Positions 24,307-38,250 of a stretch of DNA of 38,424 nt are shown here, in pieces. Source of the DNA: Eubacteriaceae bacterium CHKCI004. Its GTDB lineage: Bacteria; Bacillota; Clostridia; Lachnospirales; Lachnospiraceae. Every line of letters begins with the position of its first letter. The first letter of the stretch is position 1. Under the pieces are notes generated by a model, which was given only the letters and a program-made list of their open reading frames with translations, had not been told where the DNA came from and made no database searches. The DNA lies in the NCBI GenBank assembly GCA_900016875.1, contig FCNR01000073.1, forward strand, positions 1 to 38,424, in the 5' to 3' direction. The position numbers and the translations under genes are program-made.

Positions 24307-24401
24307 AGCCCCATAACCCTGCTGATAACCGTCTGTCAAAAGCCGGATATTCTCTGACTGTTGACAGACGGTCGTCACCCATGGGTTATGGGGCTCTTTT
24401 T
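24307..24401. terminator. Two-armed bidirectional terminator between fsa and marR
   Basis: AGCCCCATAACCC (24307-24319) pairs with GGGTTATGGGGCT (24383-24395) and is followed by CTTTTTA. Inside it a second perfect stem pairs ACCGTCTGTCAA (24328-24339) with TTGACAGACGGT (24361-24372). Both stems are perfect, which is unusual for a simple terminator. Confidence 0.75.
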
Positions 24402-24403
24402 AT

Positions 24404-24437
24404 TTGCTGTTCAGCTTTATTTGCTGTTCAGCTTTAT
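24404..24437. repeat. 17-bp tandem duplication at the 3' end of marR
   Basis: The 17-bp unit starting TTGCTGTTCAGC at 24404 repeats at 24421. It duplicates the last codons and stop of the MarR gene, one copy lying just outside it. Confidence 0.7.
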
Positions 24438-26727: not shown

Positions 26728-28203
26728 ATGCAAATACAACGTCTCGTAGACCTGGAGGATTACGAATTTGATACATTGCTCGTTACATATAACCACAAAA
26801 ACCGCCTGAGCATCGAACTTGGCAAAGTCAGCGAGATTTTTAAGGGACTTCAGGAAGATGAGCTGGTTGGTGGGAGCAAGGTGTACGGACTTCGCGGCAA
26901 AGATTTTTCTTACCAGGGGCAGCCTTACTACAATCTGATTTTTATCGGCATTCCGGAACATGCTTCGCCGAGAAGATATCAGCTTCAGTTCGGGGCAGCT
27001 CTGAAAGAGGCCAAGAAGCTGAAAGGACATAATCTTCTGATGACCGCCATCGGTGACGACGTTTCCTATTGGCTTAATTCCGCCATGAGAGGAATTCTCC
27101 TGGCAGACTATACCTTTGATAAATATCATTCTGACAAAAAAGAGACTCCGGAACTGAATCTTGGTATTCTGACCGGCGTAGATTCCGCCTCTTTCAAGAA
27201 AGAGGAGCAGTATTCCCATATGATGGCCTCCGCTGTAGCGCTGGCACGCGATCTGGTCAACGAACCGGCCAATGTAATGACTCCTTCTGCTCTGGCTGAG
27301 GAGGCAAAGGCTGTCTGCGACAAACATAACATCAAATGTACTATCCTTGAAAAAGAGGACTGCGAGGCTCTGGGCATGAATGCTTTCCTGTCTGTTGCCA
27401 AAGGCTCCAAACAGCCTCCGAAGTTTATCGTCATGGAGTATAACGGACGGGTGACAGACGAAGAAAAGATTGCTCTGATCGGCAAAGGCATCTGTTTTGA
27501 CGCCGGCGGCTATAATCTGAAGCCTTCCGCTTCCATGAAAGGAATGCACGGCGATATGGGCGGAGCCGCCGCTGTCATCGCCGCCATGAGCGCCATCGCT
27601 CAGGCAAAGCTCGGCATCAATGTGACTGCTGTGATTCCTGCCTGCGAAAATATGGTTTCCGGCAAAGCCATGAAACCGGGAGACATCATCGCTTCCATGA
27701 ACGGCAAGTATATTGAAGTTGCCAACACAGACGCAGAAGGCCGCATGGCTCTGGCTGACGCCATTACATACGCCATCCGCGAATGCGGCGCCACATCTCT
27801 CATTGATGTTGCCACACTGACAGGCGCATGTCAGGTTGCTCTGGGCAGCCGTTACACCGGCGTATTCAGCAACAGCGACGAGCTCATCGCCAAGCTGGTG
27901 CAGGCTTCCATTCTCGCCGGAGAAAATATCTGGCGTATGCCTCTCGGCGACGATGAATATAAAGATCTGAACGCTTCTTCCGTTGCCGATATCGCCAACT
28001 GTGGTACACAATGCGGCGCCATCGCAGCTGCCAGATTCTTAAATGAGTTCGTGGAGCGCAAGCCTTGGATTCACATGGATATCGCCGGCACCTCAGATTC
28101 CGACGCCGACACAGAGATCTACTCCAAAGGCGGCACCGGCGTTACCGCCATGACATTATACGAGTTTGTCAAATTAATGGAGAAACCATATAAGAGTTAT
28201 TAA
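26728..28203 (+). CDS. pepA: Leucyl aminopeptidase, M17 family
   Basis: This cytosolic dimetal aminopeptidase removes N-terminal residues from peptides. The 491-residue protein has a smaller N-terminal domain (1-160) and a C-terminal catalytic domain holding IGKGICFDAGGYNLKP, MHGDMGGAAAV and NTDAEGRMALADAI, which supply the two-metal ligands and catalytic Lys and Arg. Family consensus has FDSGG where this has FDAGG, a minor change. I chose ATG 26728, nine bases after AAAGGAG at 26712-26718; the in-frame ATG at 26698 lacks a ribosome site. It is a single-gene unit closed by the terminator at 28308-28353. Confidence 0.92.
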   Translation: MQIQRLVDLEDYEFDTLLVTYNHKNRLSIELGKVSEIFKGLQEDELVGGSKVYGLRGKDFSYQGQPYYNLIFIGIPEHASPRRYQLQFGAALKEAKKLKGHNLLMTAIGDDVSYWLNSAMRGILLADYTFDKYHSDKKETPELNLGILTGVDSASFKKEEQYSHMMASAVALARDLVNEPANVMTPSALAEEAKAVCDKHNIKCTILEKEDCEALGMNAFLSVAKGSKQPPKFIVMEYNGRVTDEEKIALIGKGICFDAGGYNLKPSASMKGMHGDMGGAAAVIAAMSAIAQAKLGINVTAVIPACENMVSGKAMKPGDIIASMNGKYIEVANTDAEGRMALADAITYAIRECGATSLIDVATLTGACQVALGSRYTGVFSNSDELIAKLVQASILAGENIWRMPLGDDEYKDLNASSVADIANCGTQCGAIAAARFLNEFVERKPWIHMDIAGTSDSDADTEIYSKGGTGVTAMTLYEFVKLMEKPYKSY

Positions 28204-29466: not shown

Positions 29467-29492
29467 CAAAGGATTTTAAAGGCAAAGTAAAA

Positions 29493-29524
29493 GAGAGCAT
29501 CTGACTACCAATTCGGATGCTCCC
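29493..29524 (-). terminator. Terminator of the candidate noncoding RNA
   Basis: On the minus strand GGGAGCATC pairs with GATGCTCTC (one G-U) around a 14-nt loop and is followed by TTTTACTTT. Confidence 0.75.
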
Positions 29525-29914
29525 TTTCACTGTTCACTTATTATGTCCAACGGTCTATACCTCCTGTTCATAATATCGTTTCGAATATTACGTTATGTTT
29601 TCTTCGGACCGTACCTCAAATACTTTTCCTCTTAACTCTAAGAAAAACTCTCCGGGAAACTTTCACCAATTCATTTACCTATCCCTACACAATTATAACC
29701 GGTTATTCTCCTCCACCTTCAAGCTTCCTTAAAATCTCGAGCGAACTTTCCTGTAATCACAATTTCAAAGTGCCAATCCTTTGAATCCTAAGACAAACTG
29801 CGCGGTGACCTGTACAACTTCTGCTTCTCAACTCATCAGGCTCTGCTATCGATAACCCCTTACCTCTTGTACCTCTTCCTTCAGCTTCTCCTGAATTCCT
29901 TACTTACTACTTCC

Positions 29915-30090
29915 GGTGGTCTGTACCTCCTGTCTTAGTATCGTTTGAGTGTCAGATTAAAGTTTTTGGTGGTCTGTACCTCCTTTACTTAGTATAGTTT
30001 TGAGTTCAAATTAGTCTTTCTGGCGGTCTGTACCTCCTGTGCTTATTTAAATCTTGAAATTAAATTAACCTTCTTGGTGGTCTCACCTCT
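29915..30090 (-). repeat. Four tandem 53-54-nt repeats (core GGAGGTACAGACCACC)
   Basis: Plus-strand cores are at 29915-29933, 29968-29984, 30022-30040 and 30076-30090, spaced 53, 54 and 54 nt; a further copy lies at 29550-29568. On the minus strand the core can fold as GG-A-GGT-ACAG-ACC-A-CC. The diverged copies keep the pairing: the distant copy changes CC to TT (G-U pairs) and the loop to ATAG, and the 30076 copy has loop GAG. Between cores, ACTAAG or AATAAG precedes the AGGAGG in three of the units. Confidence 0.8.
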
Positions 30091-30172
30091 TTTTCTTTGA
30101 CAAAAAACTGAAAATTAACAACTACAAGATTTATATAATGGACTAATCCGTCCTTTCTTTGTTTGTATCTGC

Positions 30173-30201
30173 ATTATAATATAAAGCTCATTTTTTGTCA
30201 A
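30173..30201 (-). promoter_or_regulatory. Perfect sigma-A promoter of the noncoding RNA
   Basis: On the minus strand TTGACA (30196-30201) and TATAAT (30173-30178) are separated by 17 bp. No coding start follows within 700 bp. Confidence 0.85.
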
Positions 30202-30310: not shown

Positions 30311-30847
30311 TTATTCTCGGATCTTGAACTTCTTCTGAATATCATAACGTCCCCAAAGTTCCACATCGTTTTGCCGCGCCAGATTGCGGGCGCTCTTTGT
30401 AAACCCGCTGTTAGTAACTACCATGGCTCTGTCAGCGTCATAATATGCCACGGATCCCACCGCTTCCTGAACGGCCGCGATACCTACATTTTTTTCATAG
30501 CGCTTCGCCTGAACAACAATCTTTTCTCCCCGTTTCCGGACGATCAGATCGGCTCCATAATCGTGACTGTAATCTGTCAGCGTCACCCGGTAACCCAGAT
30601 GCTTAAACTGTACCCGAAGATATTTTTCAAAGGCCCTGCCGCTTAATTTGTCTACCTTCCTCATGGACATTCTAAGATAGCGCCGGCTAATTAGTCTGCG
30701 GACAAGAAGGACGAATCCGACGGCGCACAGCATGGTGTACAGAACACACTCTTCTCCTCTGCTCTCCGTAAACAATATGTATCCTTTTCCGTAGGCTGCA
30801 AGAACCGCCGCGGCGAGTATTCCTGTGATCATATCAAATCCTGTCAT
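30311..30847 (-). CDS. Membrane-anchored Mrr-like nuclease-fold protein
   Basis: The 178-residue protein has two hydrophobic segments (about 5-25 and 33-53), then a Mrr_cat domain from residue 70: GRAFEKYLRVQFKHLGY, DYGADLIV and VVQAKRY, which supply the D and Q-x-K of the PD-(D/E)xK nuclease site, then AMVVTNSGFTKSA. Family members with this fold cut modified or foreign DNA; membrane-tethered single-gene forms are common in Firmicutes and their target is unknown. No methyltransferase gene adjoins, so it is not a classic restriction system. It is divergent from the methionine-salvage gene. Confidence 0.8.
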   Translation of the reverse strand: MTGFDMITGILAAAVLAAYGKGYILFTESRGEECVLYTMLCAVGFVLLVRRLISRRYLRMSMRKVDKLSGRAFEKYLRVQFKHLGYRVTLTDYSHDYGADLIVRKRGEKIVVQAKRYEKNVGIAAVQEAVGSVAYYDADRAMVVTNSGFTKSARNLARQNDVELWGRYDIQKKFKIRE

Positions 30848-31045: not shown

Positions 31046-33454
31046 TTGTCTGATTTCAACAGCTATTTTCTGATGAAGGAGCCGGACGTCATCGATTACG
31101 TGCAGGCGAAGCTCCATTATTTTGACTCGGAGTCGTCTCTTACCTGCAGAGAGATCGGCGACGGCAATCTTAATTATGTTTTCCGGGTGAAGGATGAAAA
31201 AAGCGGGCGTTCCATCATTGTCAAGCAGGCGGGAACGCATCTTCGCATTTCTGATAAAATGACTCTGACCACAGACCGGGGACGGATTGAGGCCAGTATT
31301 CTGAAACTCCAGGGCGCTCTGTGCCCTGGACTGGTTCCTGAGGTATACCTCTATGACGGGGTAATGTGCGCCATGATCATGGAGGATATGATCGGGCATA
31401 CAATGATGCGCACCGGACTGATTCATCATGAGATGTATCCGAAGTTTCCGGAACAGATCAGTACATTTCTTGTGAACAGTCTTCTAATGACCACCGATAT
31501 CGTCATGGATCATCAGAAACGTAAAGCTCTGGTGCGTGAGTTCTCCAACCCGGAACTGTGCGACATCACGGAGAATCTCGTGTTTGGCGAGCCGATCCTC
31601 AACTACAACGGCCGAAACGACGTCTTTCCTCCTGTGAAAGATTTTGTGGAGAAGGAAATTTACGGCGACAAGGCCCTGAAAGCGGAGGTGGCACGGCTCA
31701 AATTCCGTTTTATGAATCACGCCCAGTCGCTGATCCACGGCGACCTGCACACTGGTTCGGTATTTATCAACCAGGAGCATACTTTCGTATTTGATCCGGA
31801 GTTTGCCTTCTTCGGCCCGATGGGTTATGACATAGGAAATGTAATAGCCAACCTGTTTTTTGCGTGGGCAAACGGCAACGCCACCATCAGCGTTCCAGAG
31901 GAAAAGGCGCAGTTCTGCGGCTGGTGTATGTGCGCCATCATGGAAATCGTTGATCTGTTCAGAGAGAAGTTTCTTCGTCTTTATGACGAGCAGGTAACAG
32001 AGCCGCTGGCCAAGTCCGACGACTTCAAAGCATCTTATCTGGCAGAAATCCTTGCCGACACAGCCGGATACGCCGGTACCGAATGCATCCGCCGGATTGT
32101 GGGCATGGCGCATAATAAAGATATTACTGTTATTGAAGATATGGATAAACGTGCGACAGCAGAGAAGATTCTGCTGACCTTCGCCAAAGATCTGATCATG
32201 CATCAGAAAGATTTCCAGACGGCCGGAGAGTATTATCGCGCCATGACAGACGCCATCCGTGCCGTGGAGCCGGACAATCCTCTCATCGGCCCGGAGAAAA
32301 CCATTCTTGATTATGACACAGTGGCACTCGATGATAAAAAACACGCCCTTGTGATCATCGACCAGACCAAGCTGCCTTCCCGCATTGAGATTCTCTCGCT
32401 CACTGCTCAGAAGGATATCTGGGACGCCATTTATCTGCTGAAAGTGCGCGGCGCTCCGGCCATCGGCGTAGCAGCCGCCATCGGCATATATCTGGCAGCC
32501 AGAGAGATTGCTATTTCCATGACAGCACAGAGCGGCGATGCCGCAGGGCAAGGGGAACCCACTCCGGATTACAATGAGTTCCTTCGGCGTTTCCGCGAAG
32601 CTTCTGAGTATCTGAATTCTTCCCGTCCGACGGCAGTCAACCTGTCCTGGGCTCTTCGACGCATGGAAAATGTGGTGCTTGATCACAAAGGAGCTTCTGT
32701 GCCGCAGATTGTCGATGCTCTGCATGACGAGGCTCTCGCCATCCGCAAAGAGGACATTCTGGTCTGCCGGTCCATCGGCAAATACGGACTGTCTCTCGTG
32801 AAACCGGGCGACGGCCTGCTAACCCACTGCAACGCCGGACAGCTTGCCACGGTAAAATACGGCACCGCCACCGCCCCGATGTATCTTGGCCAGGAAAAAG
32901 GCTATAATTTCAAAGTATACTGTGATGAGACTCGTCCGCTGCTTCAGGGCGCAAGACTTACCAGTTTCGAGCTGTCAAGCGCCGGTCTGGACGTTACGCT
33001 GCTGTGCGATAACATGTCCGCCTCCCTAATGCGTGAAGGCAAGATTCAAGCTGTGTTCGTAGGATGCGATCGTGTGGCGGCCAACGGAGATACCGCCAAC
33101 AAGATCGGTACTTCCATGGCGGCTCTCGCCGCTAAGAGATACAATGTACCGTTCTACGTGTGCGCGCCGACCTCCACCATCGATATGGACACCGCCACCG
33201 GCGATGATATTGTCATCGAACAGAGAAAACCGGAAGAGGTCACTGACATGTGGTACGAAAAGCCAATGGCCGCTCCCGGCGTAAACGTTTATAATCCTGC
33301 TTTCGACGTGACCGACCACGATCTGATCACAGGCATTGTCACTGAATTTGGTATTGCATATCCGCCGTACAGTGAATCATTTCAGGAGATATTTTTGAAA
33401 AAACAGATTCGGGATACTGTACAGCGGATGATAAAGGATATGGATATAAAATAA
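31046..33454 (+). CDS. mtnKA: Fused methylthioribose kinase / methylthioribose-1-phosphate isomerase
   Basis: Residues 1-400 are MtnK, which phosphorylates 5-methylthioribose: IGDGNLNYVFRV (ATP loop), SLIHGDLHTGSVFI (catalytic) and VFDPEFAFFGPMGYD. Residues about 410-802 are MtnA, which isomerises the product to methylthioribulose-1-phosphate: KVRGAPAIGVAAAIG, LLTHCNAGQLAT with the catalytic Cys and GCDRVAANGDTANKIGT with the catalytic Asp. In Bacillus these are separate adjacent genes; here one chain does two consecutive steps of methionine salvage, perhaps channelling the product. The start is TTG 31046, eight bases after AAGGGGGT; the nearby ATG at 31026 is out of frame. No mtnB, mtnW or mtnD lies nearby. 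Confidence 0.92.
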   Translation: MSDFNSYFLMKEPDVIDYVQAKLHYFDSESSLTCREIGDGNLNYVFRVKDEKSGRSIIVKQAGTHLRISDKMTLTTDRGRIEASILKLQGALCPGLVPEVYLYDGVMCAMIMEDMIGHTMMRTGLIHHEMYPKFPEQISTFLVNSLLMTTDIVMDHQKRKALVREFSNPELCDITENLVFGEPILNYNGRNDVFPPVKDFVEKEIYGDKALKAEVARLKFRFMNHAQSLIHGDLHTGSVFINQEHTFVFDPEFAFFGPMGYDIGNVIANLFFAWANGNATISVPEEKAQFCGWCMCAIMEIVDLFREKFLRLYDEQVTEPLAKSDDFKASYLAEILADTAGYAGTECIRRIVGMAHNKDITVIEDMDKRATAEKILLTFAKDLIMHQKDFQTAGEYYRAMTDAIRAVEPDNPLIGPEKTILDYDTVALDDKKHALVIIDQTKLPSRIEILSLTAQKDIWDAIYLLKVRGAPAIGVAAAIGIYLAAREIAISMTAQSGDAAGQGEPTPDYNEFLRRFREASEYLNSSRPTAVNLSWALRRMENVVLDHKGASVPQIVDALHDEALAIRKEDILVCRSIGKYGLSLVKPGDGLLTHCNAGQLATVKYGTATAPMYLGQEKGYNFKVYCDETRPLLQGARLTSFELSSAGLDVTLLCDNMSASLMREGKIQAVFVGCDRVAANGDTANKIGTSMAALAAKRYNVPFYVCAPTSTIDMDTATGDDIVIEQRKPEEVTDMWYEKPMAAPGVNVYNPAFDVTDHDLITGIVTEFGIAYPPYSESFQEIFLKKQIRDTVQRMIKDMDIK

Positions 33455-33497: not shown

Positions 33498-33545
33498 AAC
33501 AGCCGACGCATATGCTGAAAACAGTTTTGCGCCGGCTGTTTTTAT
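33498..33545. terminator. Terminator after mtnKA, usable in both directions
   Basis: AACAGCCG (33498-33505) pairs with CGGCTGTT (33533-33540), followed by TTTTAT. The minus strand also ends in a T-rich run, serving the convergent methyltransferase gene. Confidence 0.75.
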
Positions 33546-33615
33546 AAGCCACCTATTCTTATAAGACAGCTATTGTTATATTCGGAGAATCAAACCATCA
33601 CGCGATAACTTTCAA

Positions 33616-37023: not shown

Positions 37024-38250
37024 TTAATTACCGGCTGCAGTTGTTGCTGCTGCTGTGGTTGTATCTGCCGCTGTTGTGGTATCTGCTGCTGCGGTTGTGT
37101 CCGCCGCTCCGGCTTCGGTCGTCGCTGCTGCTGTGGTTGTATCAGATGCCGCGGTTGTATCTGCGGCACCGGCAGCTGTGGTCGACTCTGCGGCGGTGTC
37201 TTCGTGGAGGACAAGTTCTGCCCAGAGTTCCTGATTGACGTCTTCGTCGTAGTTCCATTCTTCTTCCAGATCCGCGGTCCATCCATCGTAAACTTCTGTG
37301 AATTTGGTCTGCTGGCGTTCGGCGATAATGGACTGGCGGTTGCTTTCTGTGGCGTCCGTGTCGGTGTAGGCGTCCAGTCTGGCGATGACGTAACCGTTGT
37401 CGCATTCCTGTACTTCCTGGGTGATGTCGCCGTCGTTCATGGTGGAGAGCAGCTGTTCGAATTCTTCGCCTTCTTCGGATTCGCCTGCGGCGAAGGTTTC
37501 TGTGGTGTTGGTGTATTCCTGTTCTTCAGCCACATCGGCGATGTCGGTGCCTGCCTGTACTTTGGCAAGGGCGGACTGTGCAGTAGCGAGAACCTGCGCT
37601 TTTTCTTCGTCGCTCATGTCTACGGTGTTTCCTTCATCGTCTGTGGTTGTGGTGGCAAATACCACACGGGTGATGGTGGTTTCTCTTGCCTCATCGTCAC
37701 TGACATTGGTGTCGGTGTCTTTTATCATGTATTCCTGCACTTTGGCTGCCAATGCATTTTCTTCGTAGATCTCCACCATATCGTCTTCGGTAGCTCCGCA
37801 CTCAGCGAGAATTGCAGCGCCGGATGTATCTTCCGCAAAAGCGGCGGCGTATTCCTCACACTGTGTCTGTTCATCTTCAGTCAAAGATGCTCCCGCCTCC
37901 TCGGCATGGTTATTGAGAACGATGATCTGTTTGATCCGGGCAATAATCTGCTCTTTCGCATAATCCTCAAATGTTGTTGTATTGCCTTCCTCATCCGTAC
38001 CCATACTCATTGTCCAGAAATTCTCTCCAAAATAGGAAGAATAGGATGACTCATACTGGGCAGCAGTCATTTTACCGTATATCCACGCTTTTTTCAGCGT
38101 CACATCCACGCCGTCATAAGTGAACAACGTCTCATTTCCATTCTGGGTTACTTCCCCCTGTCCGCCGGATGTGCCGCAGCCGGTCATGGCGCCGACGGCC
38201 AGAACTGCTGTAAGAGCTGCTGCTGCCAGGCGTTTTGTATTGTGTTTCAT
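37024..38250 (-). CDS. PrsA/SurA-like peptidylprolyl isomerase lipoprotein
   Basis: The 408-residue protein has a lipoprotein signal with lipobox AMTGC near residue 25, so it should be anchored on the outer membrane face. An alpha-helical chaperone-like region follows, then a parvulin-like (PpiC) stretch around ETTITRVVFA to GYVIARLDAYT. Such proteins assist folding of exported proteins. The last 45 or so residues are a low-complexity Thr/Ala-rich repeat (TTAAADTTT-type), perhaps a flexible or glycosylated tail. The rotamase active site is weakly conserved. AGGAGG precedes the ATG, and its leader matches the repeats of the candidate RNA. Confidence 0.75.
   Translation of the reverse strand: MKHNTKRLAAAALTAVLAVGAMTGCGTSGGQGEVTQNGNETLFTYDGVDVTLKKAWIYGKMTAAQYESSYSSYFGENFWTMSMGTDEEGNTTTFEDYAKEQIIARIKQIIVLNNHAEEAGASLTEDEQTQCEEYAAAFAEDTSGAAILAECGATEDDMVEIYEENALAAKVQEYMIKDTDTNVSDDEARETTITRVVFATTTTDDEGNTVDMSDEEKAQVLATAQSALAKVQAGTDIADVAEEQEYTNTTETFAAGESEEGEEFEQLLSTMNDGDITQEVQECDNGYVIARLDAYTDTDATESNRQSIIAERQQTKFTEVYDGWTADLEEEWNYDEDVNQELWAELVLHEDTAAESTTAAGAADTTAASDTTTAAATTEAGAADTTAAADTTTAADTTTAAATTAAGN

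Follow-up and report, generated by a model that had tools for sequence, protein, structure and literature searches.

The window, a 38,424-nt stretch of DNA from Eubacteriaceae bacterium CHKCI004 (Lachnospiraceae; contig FCNR01000073.1), looks to encode a real, strongly promoted RNA on its minus strand. A family of such RNAs almost certainly exists; it is conserved and, within the searches made, undescribed, and its architecture fits no known class. The first-pass annotation of this region had proposed a new noncoding RNA with its own promoter and terminator, but it overlooked that the repeats in the predicted RNA are Shine-Dalgarno (SD) units and that a putative micro-ORF ends it. The arrangement suggests that the RNA engages ribosomes without making a normal protein.

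Features of the RNA locus, in window coordinates (all on the minus strand)
Feature	Positions	Strand	Description	Basis
Promoter	30201..30173	-	-35 TTGACA 30201-30196; 17-nt spacer; -10 TATAAT 30178-30173	12/12 consensus match
RNA body	29487..30166	-	predicted start ~30166 (7 nt past -10), end at T-tract; ~680 nt	sequence; homologues in 21/23 other genus genomes
5' element GGACGG..GUCC	30153-30140	-		sequence; GGAC/GUCC invariant in 12/12 aligned, hence no covariation
AUU-AUA-UAA after 5' element	30139-30131	-	near-cognate start, single codon, stop	
Long-range stem	30133-30119 with 30062-30048	-	encloses first degenerate unit	12-sequence alignment
Degenerate unit GAGGUGAGACCACC	30076..30089	-		sequence
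Internal unit 1 GGAGGUACAGACCGCC	30022..30037	-	SD site without start codon	repeat, pattern and unit-model searches
Internal unit 2 GGAGGUACAGACCACC	29968..29983	-		repeat, pattern; unit model E = 2.6e-10
Internal unit 3 GGAGGUACAGACCACC	29915..29930	-		repeat, pattern and unit-model searches
Internal unit 4 GAGGUACGGUCC	29606..29617	-	GUCC type, without start codon	
Terminal SD site AGGAGGUAUAGACC	29552..29565	-		3'-end comparison of genus and family
Micro-ORF UUG GAC AUA AUA AGU GAA CAG UGA	29550-29527	-	M-D-I-I-S-E-Q-stop	UUG and in-frame stop in 22/22 genus loci
Intrinsic terminator	29524..29489	-	9-bp stem 29524-29516 / 29501-29493; 14-nt loop; TTTT 29492-29489	read from sequence; relatives' 3' ends correspond

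The perfect promoter reported in the first-pass annotation was confirmed, and it is the sole 12-of-12 site that a promoter scan found between positions 27000 and 33000; looser promoter-like sites in this interval number 9, against 9.2 in shuffled sequences. At all 21 loci of the genus (Anaerobutyricum) whose 5' end is intact, both hexamers are perfect; the spacer, by contrast, has diverged. A 22nd genus locus, L006, was left out of this count because its 5' end is cut by a contig end. The stem-loop and T-tract that had been noted downstream are likewise present; our automatic terminator scan omitted them, as it allowed loops of 3-8 nt only. The interval had been described as lacking a credible gene, and indeed no minus-strand frame within it exceeds 29 aa. 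It had also been described as containing tandem repeats, which we find at 29915-30083 with a period of 54 and 3.1 copies. The window's genome carries one copy of the RNA.

The neighbourhood of the locus was also inspected. Upstream, at 30311-30847 on the minus strand, lies a gene for a small Mrr_cat nuclease-like protein (PF04471), and this protein or a homologue stands directly upstream of the RNA in 13 genus loci. The plus strand carries, at 31046-33454, an 802-aa frame that matches S-methyl-5-thioribose kinase (residues 10-395) and S-methyl-5-thioribose-1-phosphate isomerase (residues 425-787), and which is thus an apparent MtnK-MtnA fusion. Short tandem repeats at 24399-24437, 33542-33580 and 37047-37164 (periods of 17, 17 and 18 nt) are unrelated to the RNA. 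On the downstream side, a 9-of-12 promoter-like site (29466-29438) precedes an M14 gene, and by eye a sequence like it precedes the M14 gene in several relatives. The earlier claim that this gene has its own promoter is plausible, but the site is weak.

How widely is the RNA distributed? A DNA search of 61 genomes returned 23 with a homologue. They comprise the window's own genome, 21 of the 23 other members of the genus (including Anaerobutyricum hallii DSM 3353, locus L040) and one marginal case in another genus, where only 56 bases at the promoter end matched (E = 1.4e-4). The two genus genomes without a homologue are 75 and 78% complete. Within the genus, the length of the RNA ranges from about 430 to 920 nt. 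The repeat core, GAGGTACRGACCACCRAAA, occurs with at most one mismatch in 85 of 397 Lachnospiraceae genomes; the reversed control pattern was found in one genome. A 45-nt, sequence-only model of the unit (R1), built from 57 units, matched 171 of these 397 genomes (43%) at E ≤ 0.001 and left 226 without a match. In a sample of 291 Clostridia genomes, 17 matched at E ≤ 0.01, five of them Lachnospiraceae. Below 1e-5, there were only two, the window's genome and another member of the Lachnospiraceae, and the best match outside the family had an E of 1.7e-4. Both unit-model searches used stricter filters, which lose weak matches. Another pattern, comprising the promoter plus the RNA start, was rejected as a family marker: it found at least 118 genome_contigs loci, many of which are unrelated promoters. 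Among the 100 of these that were scanned with model R1 (L031-L130; the other 18 were left out), 22 matched at E ≤ 0.001. In the family sample this pattern hit 42 of 397 genomes, and one (L165) of six inspected loci was family-like.

The first-pass annotation had stated that the sequence fits no known RNA class and had proposed an Rfam search together with a search for covarying pairs. Within the searches made, the statement holds. At the gathering cut-off, Rfam 15 (4227 families) gave no match in the window and none in 20 family loci, and a lax search of the locus returned two matches only (E of 0.13 and 0.72), both far below gathering. ARAGORN found no tmRNA in the window. The locus had no match among phage records and plasmids, nor did the exact unit pattern among viral contigs. 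The RNA was not recognised in a literature search that covered the titles and abstract openings of open papers, with subscription papers mostly outside its reach. One report assigns the strongest start site of Clostridium phytofermentans, on cellulose as well as on corn stover, to a transcription unit without a name that follows a glycoside hydrolase gene and may, as suggested there, be noncoding (PMC5171806). That unit lies beside cphy2658 and might be a further member of the family. Six loci from different genera (L190, L223, L246, L255, L260 and L266) share a downstream gene cluster, one inspected member of which looks GH3-like by eye and invites comparison with the hydrolase gene next to the C. 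phytofermentans unit.

Loci that had been collected by the unit motif alone allowed the promoter and the 3' end to serve as independent tests. Promoters were scored out of 12, with 0.5 added for a 17-nt spacer, at 84 loci (89 unit-hit loci less two genus copies and three with short upstream sequence). A TTGACA/TATAAT score of at least 11 was found within 300 nt upstream on the same strand at 60 of these 84 loci, on the opposite strand at none and downstream at three. The gene downstream of the RNA is codirectional in 60 of 88 cases and on the opposite strand in 28, and the neighbours vary by clade. Since loci found by the unit alone mostly carry same-strand upstream promoters, and since the neighbours vary and are in part opposed in direction, the RNA is a stand-alone transcription unit. 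These comparisons show the promoter, predicted RNA body and terminator to be one independent unit. They support this part of the first-pass proposal: within the genus, and in RNAs of other lengths across the Lachnospiraceae, the promoter, the internal units and the 3' end are all conserved. From the promoter only, we infer that the RNA would be highly abundant.

The internal units have the consensus AAGGAGGUACRGACC-ACC-RAAAAC-N-UAA, the first half of which is an SD sequence complementary to the 3' tail of 16S rRNA. An RNA has from one to nine such units, and 54 of 94 RNAs have just one. At the position where a start codon would be expected, units of the ACC class (n = 157) have CCA (92), CCG (40) or ACA (21), so that CCA or CCG accounts for 132; a stop triplet falls exactly at codon 4 of the frame in 105 of the 157, and this is so for 67 of the 85 such units found in other genera. 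Of the 189 internal sites, just 12 have a start codon at a usable distance behind them, whereas random positions within these RNAs would lead one to expect 43.8, and 10 of the 12 open a frame that closes after 2-5 codons. AUG is depleted only after the SDs; over whole RNAs it occurs 422 times (424.7 expected). Because start codons are rare after the internal SDs, and because the frames that do open are soon closed, the internal sites appear to be kept from opening a real reading frame. The comparison thus shows that the predicted internal SD units stay free of a real frame, usually by means of CCA, CCG or ACA and otherwise by a start that is followed by a stop after 2-5 codons. In short distant members (e.g., L066, L079, L112), the start-bearing sites read like AUG-AAA-ACA-UAA or UUG-AGA-AAG-UAA.

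Some genus RNAs also carry the 5' element. In 14 of them, the triplet after GUCC is AUU, AUC or AUA in 11, AUG in one (L013) and UUU or UUC in two (L003, L007). It is followed by one codon (AUA, once ACA) and then a stop, making a near-cognate start-stop. After the SD of the internal units, the block UACRGACC-ACC-RAAA looks as conserved as the SD itself, a conservation whose true extent is uncertain because the seed pattern selects for this block. A conserved middle domain was sought and rejected: beyond A-rich words, there were only words like TGACGAGAAAGTA, in 10-14 of 78 RNAs. One RNA (L067) contains a long AACAAGA-type tandem run with a stretch of N.

The 3' end of the RNA is organized differently. 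All 22 genus RNAs have a UUG behind their last SD, and the frame that it opens stops after 7-10 codons. This comparison was extended to 94 RNAs, which comprise the 22 genus RNAs and 72 unit-hit loci. From the 89 unit-hit loci (L179-L267) we dropped two genus copies already counted (L184, L185), four that lacked an acceptable upstream promoter in the available sequence (L218, L225, L229, L233), three with no terminator (L216, L221, L240) and eight with a weak one (L180, L211, L215, L245, L247, L258, L264, L265). An SD and a start codon precede the terminator in 92 of the 94 RNAs (54 AUG, 37 UUG, one GUG); they were not found in L241 and L256. In 85 RNAs, the predicted frame has 4-10 codons (mostly 5-10) and its stop lies no more than 6 nt from the terminator stem, so that, judged from sequence only, a small frame with an SD of the kind expected in a dual-function sRNA is conserved. 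Dinucleotide shuffles of the upstream 75 nt lead one to expect 3.8 such layouts, and five were seen at 184 other terminators, which were taken from genome_contigs loci L031-L148 under a somewhat stricter stem rule. Some of the automatic terminator and frame picks are probably wrong (e.g., L253, L261). Many terminator stems of L179-L267 share, by eye, a sequence like GGGUAUC...GAUACCC across genera, beyond what a terminator should need.

The micro-ORF peptides vary (MDSIV, MIEESK and MDIIEQY types) and are not conserved between clades. For their comparison, the odd frames L202, L213, L242, L253 and L261 were also excluded, leaving 87 peptides. Third codon positions change most (58, vs. 38 and 43 at the other two), and 33 of 139 nearest-neighbour changes are synonymous, a slight enrichment over the 17.7% expected. 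Asp or Glu is present in all of the peptides but one (MKLLNYH). The position of the frame and its presumed translation look more constrained than the peptide. The word "noncoding" in the first-pass annotation is thus not tenable in the strict sense, given the conserved 7-codon micro-ORF. That annotation had named a coding frame conserved in relatives as evidence against its proposal; this applies in part, since the frame found is the micro-ORF and not a protein gene.

The annotation's further claim of several stems fared less well. With its terminator, the window RNA has a fold energy of z = -2.45 relative to 20 shuffles; without it, z = -1.49 relative to 30. The mean z for 18 RNAs without terminators is a modest -2.45, and the bodies of the 18 RNAs examined are purine-rich (62-72%). 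One 15-bp long-range stem near the 5' end is consistent across 12 genus sequences, with 97.8% of helix cells paired and at most 57.9% in slid controls of the whole structure. Eight of its pairs are invariant, five vary on one side, one varies on both sides and one varies only by unpaired cells. Covariation in this stem does not rise above the control, as 58 of 500 shuffles reach the observed score. A unit hairpin, GG.GGU/ACC.CC, was rejected as a conserved structure: no pair changed on both sides, and pairs 13-28, 14-27 and 18-23 were broken in 15, 9 and 5 of 57 rows, although the rows were seed-selected. On these measures, the RNA is mainly a linear-motif RNA.

What might the units bind? The 16S 3' tail sequence that we used is present exactly in 4 of 10 family genomes searched; the other six, including the window's own draft genome, gave no exact match. 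With a single-stranded tail, the predicted pairing energy averages -13.4 kcal/mol for terminal sites (n = 77) and -15.3 kcal/mol for internal units (n = 107), and the SD core contributes about -9.7 of this; these sets include only some genus members and no rows in which an SD core could not be recognised. Compared with shuffled spacers, the spacer strengthens the pairing in 57 of 77 terminal sites (52 of the 58 that end in CC) but in only 64 of 107 internal units, and the extra pairing of the terminal sites disappears when the tail's GG is removed. With a longer tail, the units beat the shuffles in 73 of 81 and 104 of 107 cases, a result that we discarded because the pairing used bases of helix 45. 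When the full unit was hybridised in silico to one rRNA operon, it scored -20.5 and -20.1 at two places in 23S, vs. -19.1 at the 16S 3' end. The spacer half had no special rRNA target: its best score in one operon was -16.9 kcal/mol, no better than the average over 40 shuffles (-16.9). Pairing with 16S therefore does not explain the conserved ACC block, and a second ligand is possible.

Other candidate partners were considered. The motif ACAGGAGGUACA resembles CsrA sites, but a CsrA sponge was rejected, as CsrA exceeded the PF02599 cut-off in 0 of 24 genus genomes; in two of the 24, a frame of about 300 aa contained a weak match below that threshold. A target elsewhere in the window's genome was likewise rejected: the unit gave 17 + 21 matches with up to three mismatches, against 13 + 13 for the reversed pattern. 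Matches with no or one mismatch were the RNA's own copies only, and one other place has two. The complement of the unit showed no clear excess in this genome.

The reading that we prefer, while holding it somewhat short of probable, is that the RNA docks 30S subunits at non-productive sites and that one translated micro-ORF links its fate to initiation. The 30S subunits would pair with the internal sites via the anti-SD of 16S rRNA, and initiation there could not be completed. A subunit that reached or landed on the terminal site would form a 70S ribosome, translate a few codons and terminate against the hairpin. The RNA might thereby hold a pool of 30S subunits as a buffer or decoy, by a logic like that of the CsrB-type multi-site decoys, and terminal translation would bring a ribosome to the base of the 3' hairpin, coupling RNA stability or ribosome release to the success of initiation. 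Speaking for this reading are the same-strand promoters, the avoidance of starts at internal sites, the terminal micro-ORF, the strong predicted pairing with the 16S tail, the purine-rich bodies and the neighbours, which differ by clade and are in part opposed. Against it, a plain 30S decoy would not need the conserved UACRGACC-ACC-RAAA block; the spacer's gain in 16S pairing is limited among internal units, and two 23S places score slightly above the 16S 3' end. Moreover, AUG is undepleted in whole RNAs, a single internal unit, as in 54 of the 94, is little for a titrating array, and more than half of the sampled family genomes have no match to the unit model.

Two other accounts strike us as unlikely. 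The RNA could be a minimal mRNA or a dual-function RNA whose product is a short, acidic, formylated peptide (of the MDSIV, MIEESK or MDIIEQ types), and the internal sites would be standby sites, increasing the density of ribosomes available to the last frame. The SD, start, frame and stop kept in 85 of 94 RNAs, the changes concentrated at third positions, the synonymous excess and the near-universal Asp or Glu are what this account would predict, but that excess is small, the peptides differ between clades and are too short for a secretion signal, and the internal CCR-NNN-NNN-stop is left unexplained. Alternatively, and with a similarly small chance, the units may be decoys for another ligand, such as an RNA-binding protein or a base-pairing sRNA rich in C and U, for which the SD-like purines would serve as bait. 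Conservation of the spacer and the ACC block beyond the SD (a seed-biased measure), which 16S pairing does not account for, fits such a decoy, as does the logic of CsrB-type multi-site decoys; the lack of CsrA above the cut-off in the genus, the lack of a clear excess of unit complements in the window's genome and the MIEESK-type RNAs, in which the terminal site has no GNCC block, do not.

The remaining accounts seem to us less probable still. A translation-gated sensor of initiation fidelity or of fMet-tRNA supply, in which graded starts (AUU/AUC/AUA, CCR, UUG, AUG) decide ribosome access to the terminator base and open it to exonucleases, is quite improbable. The short frame with its stop close to the stem, the near-cognate triplets after GUCC and the UUG start of all 22 genus RNAs would suit it; however, the 5' element is limited to part of the genus, its triplet is UUU or UUC in 2 of 14, and most terminal starts overall are AUG (54 of 92). 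An SD and a short frame ending at a terminator constitute the layout of ribosome-mediated attenuators, and most downstream genes are codirectional. Nevertheless, it is very unlikely that the RNA acts in cis on the downstream gene, as its leader or attenuator: 28 of the 88 downstream genes are opposed, their identity varies, no conserved codirectional downstream gene was found across the 88 loci, and the window's M14 gene may have its own promoter. That the motifs arose by chance in an untranscribed spacer is barely credible, as independent loci in many genera share the unit, the promoter and the 3' end.

Comparison with known systems places the RNA beside several without matching any. Like the CsrB, CsrC and RsmZ decoys, it is a stand-alone RNA with a repeated motif resembling a ribosome-binding site that may be able to titrate a translation-related factor, although 54 of the 94 RNAs have one internal unit only; unlike them, it has full SDs in a fixed, frame-like context rather than GGA in hairpin loops, as well as a terminal micro-ORF, in a genus with no CsrA above the cut-off in 24 genomes. 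It shares with the dual-function sRNAs RNAIII, SgrS/SgrT and SR1 a regulatory size and a small frame with its own SD, but here the frame has mostly 5-10 codons, is poorly conserved and is pinned to the terminator, and the remainder consists of SD sites without frames. In minigenes of the lambda bar type, too, an SD leads into a start and, a few codons on, a stop; in our case, most sites have another triplet instead of the start codon, and the RNA is a stand-alone chromosomal one. Finally, GOLLD, ROOL, OLE and raiA are long bacterial noncoding RNAs whose functions are obscure or recently found, whereas this RNA has no Rfam match, modest structure and an architecture of sequence motifs.

The boldest form of our preferred reading is an RNA, spread through the Lachnospiraceae, that acts directly on the translation apparatus: start-less initiation sites would capture 30S subunits, and the micro-ORF would park or release a ribosome on the RNA's own terminator hairpin. 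We consider this form rather unlikely. Were it true, the RNA would be the counterpart, made of RNA only, of the factors that buffer ribosomes or put them into hibernation, and, if the ribosome reading is right, these bacteria would tune their free 30S pool by RNA, not by protein. The unit model marks 43% of the sampled genomes of a major gut family, and the loci tested are absent from Rfam 15. Even if the ligand should be another one, start-less SD sites and terminator-linked micro-ORFs escape annotation pipelines.
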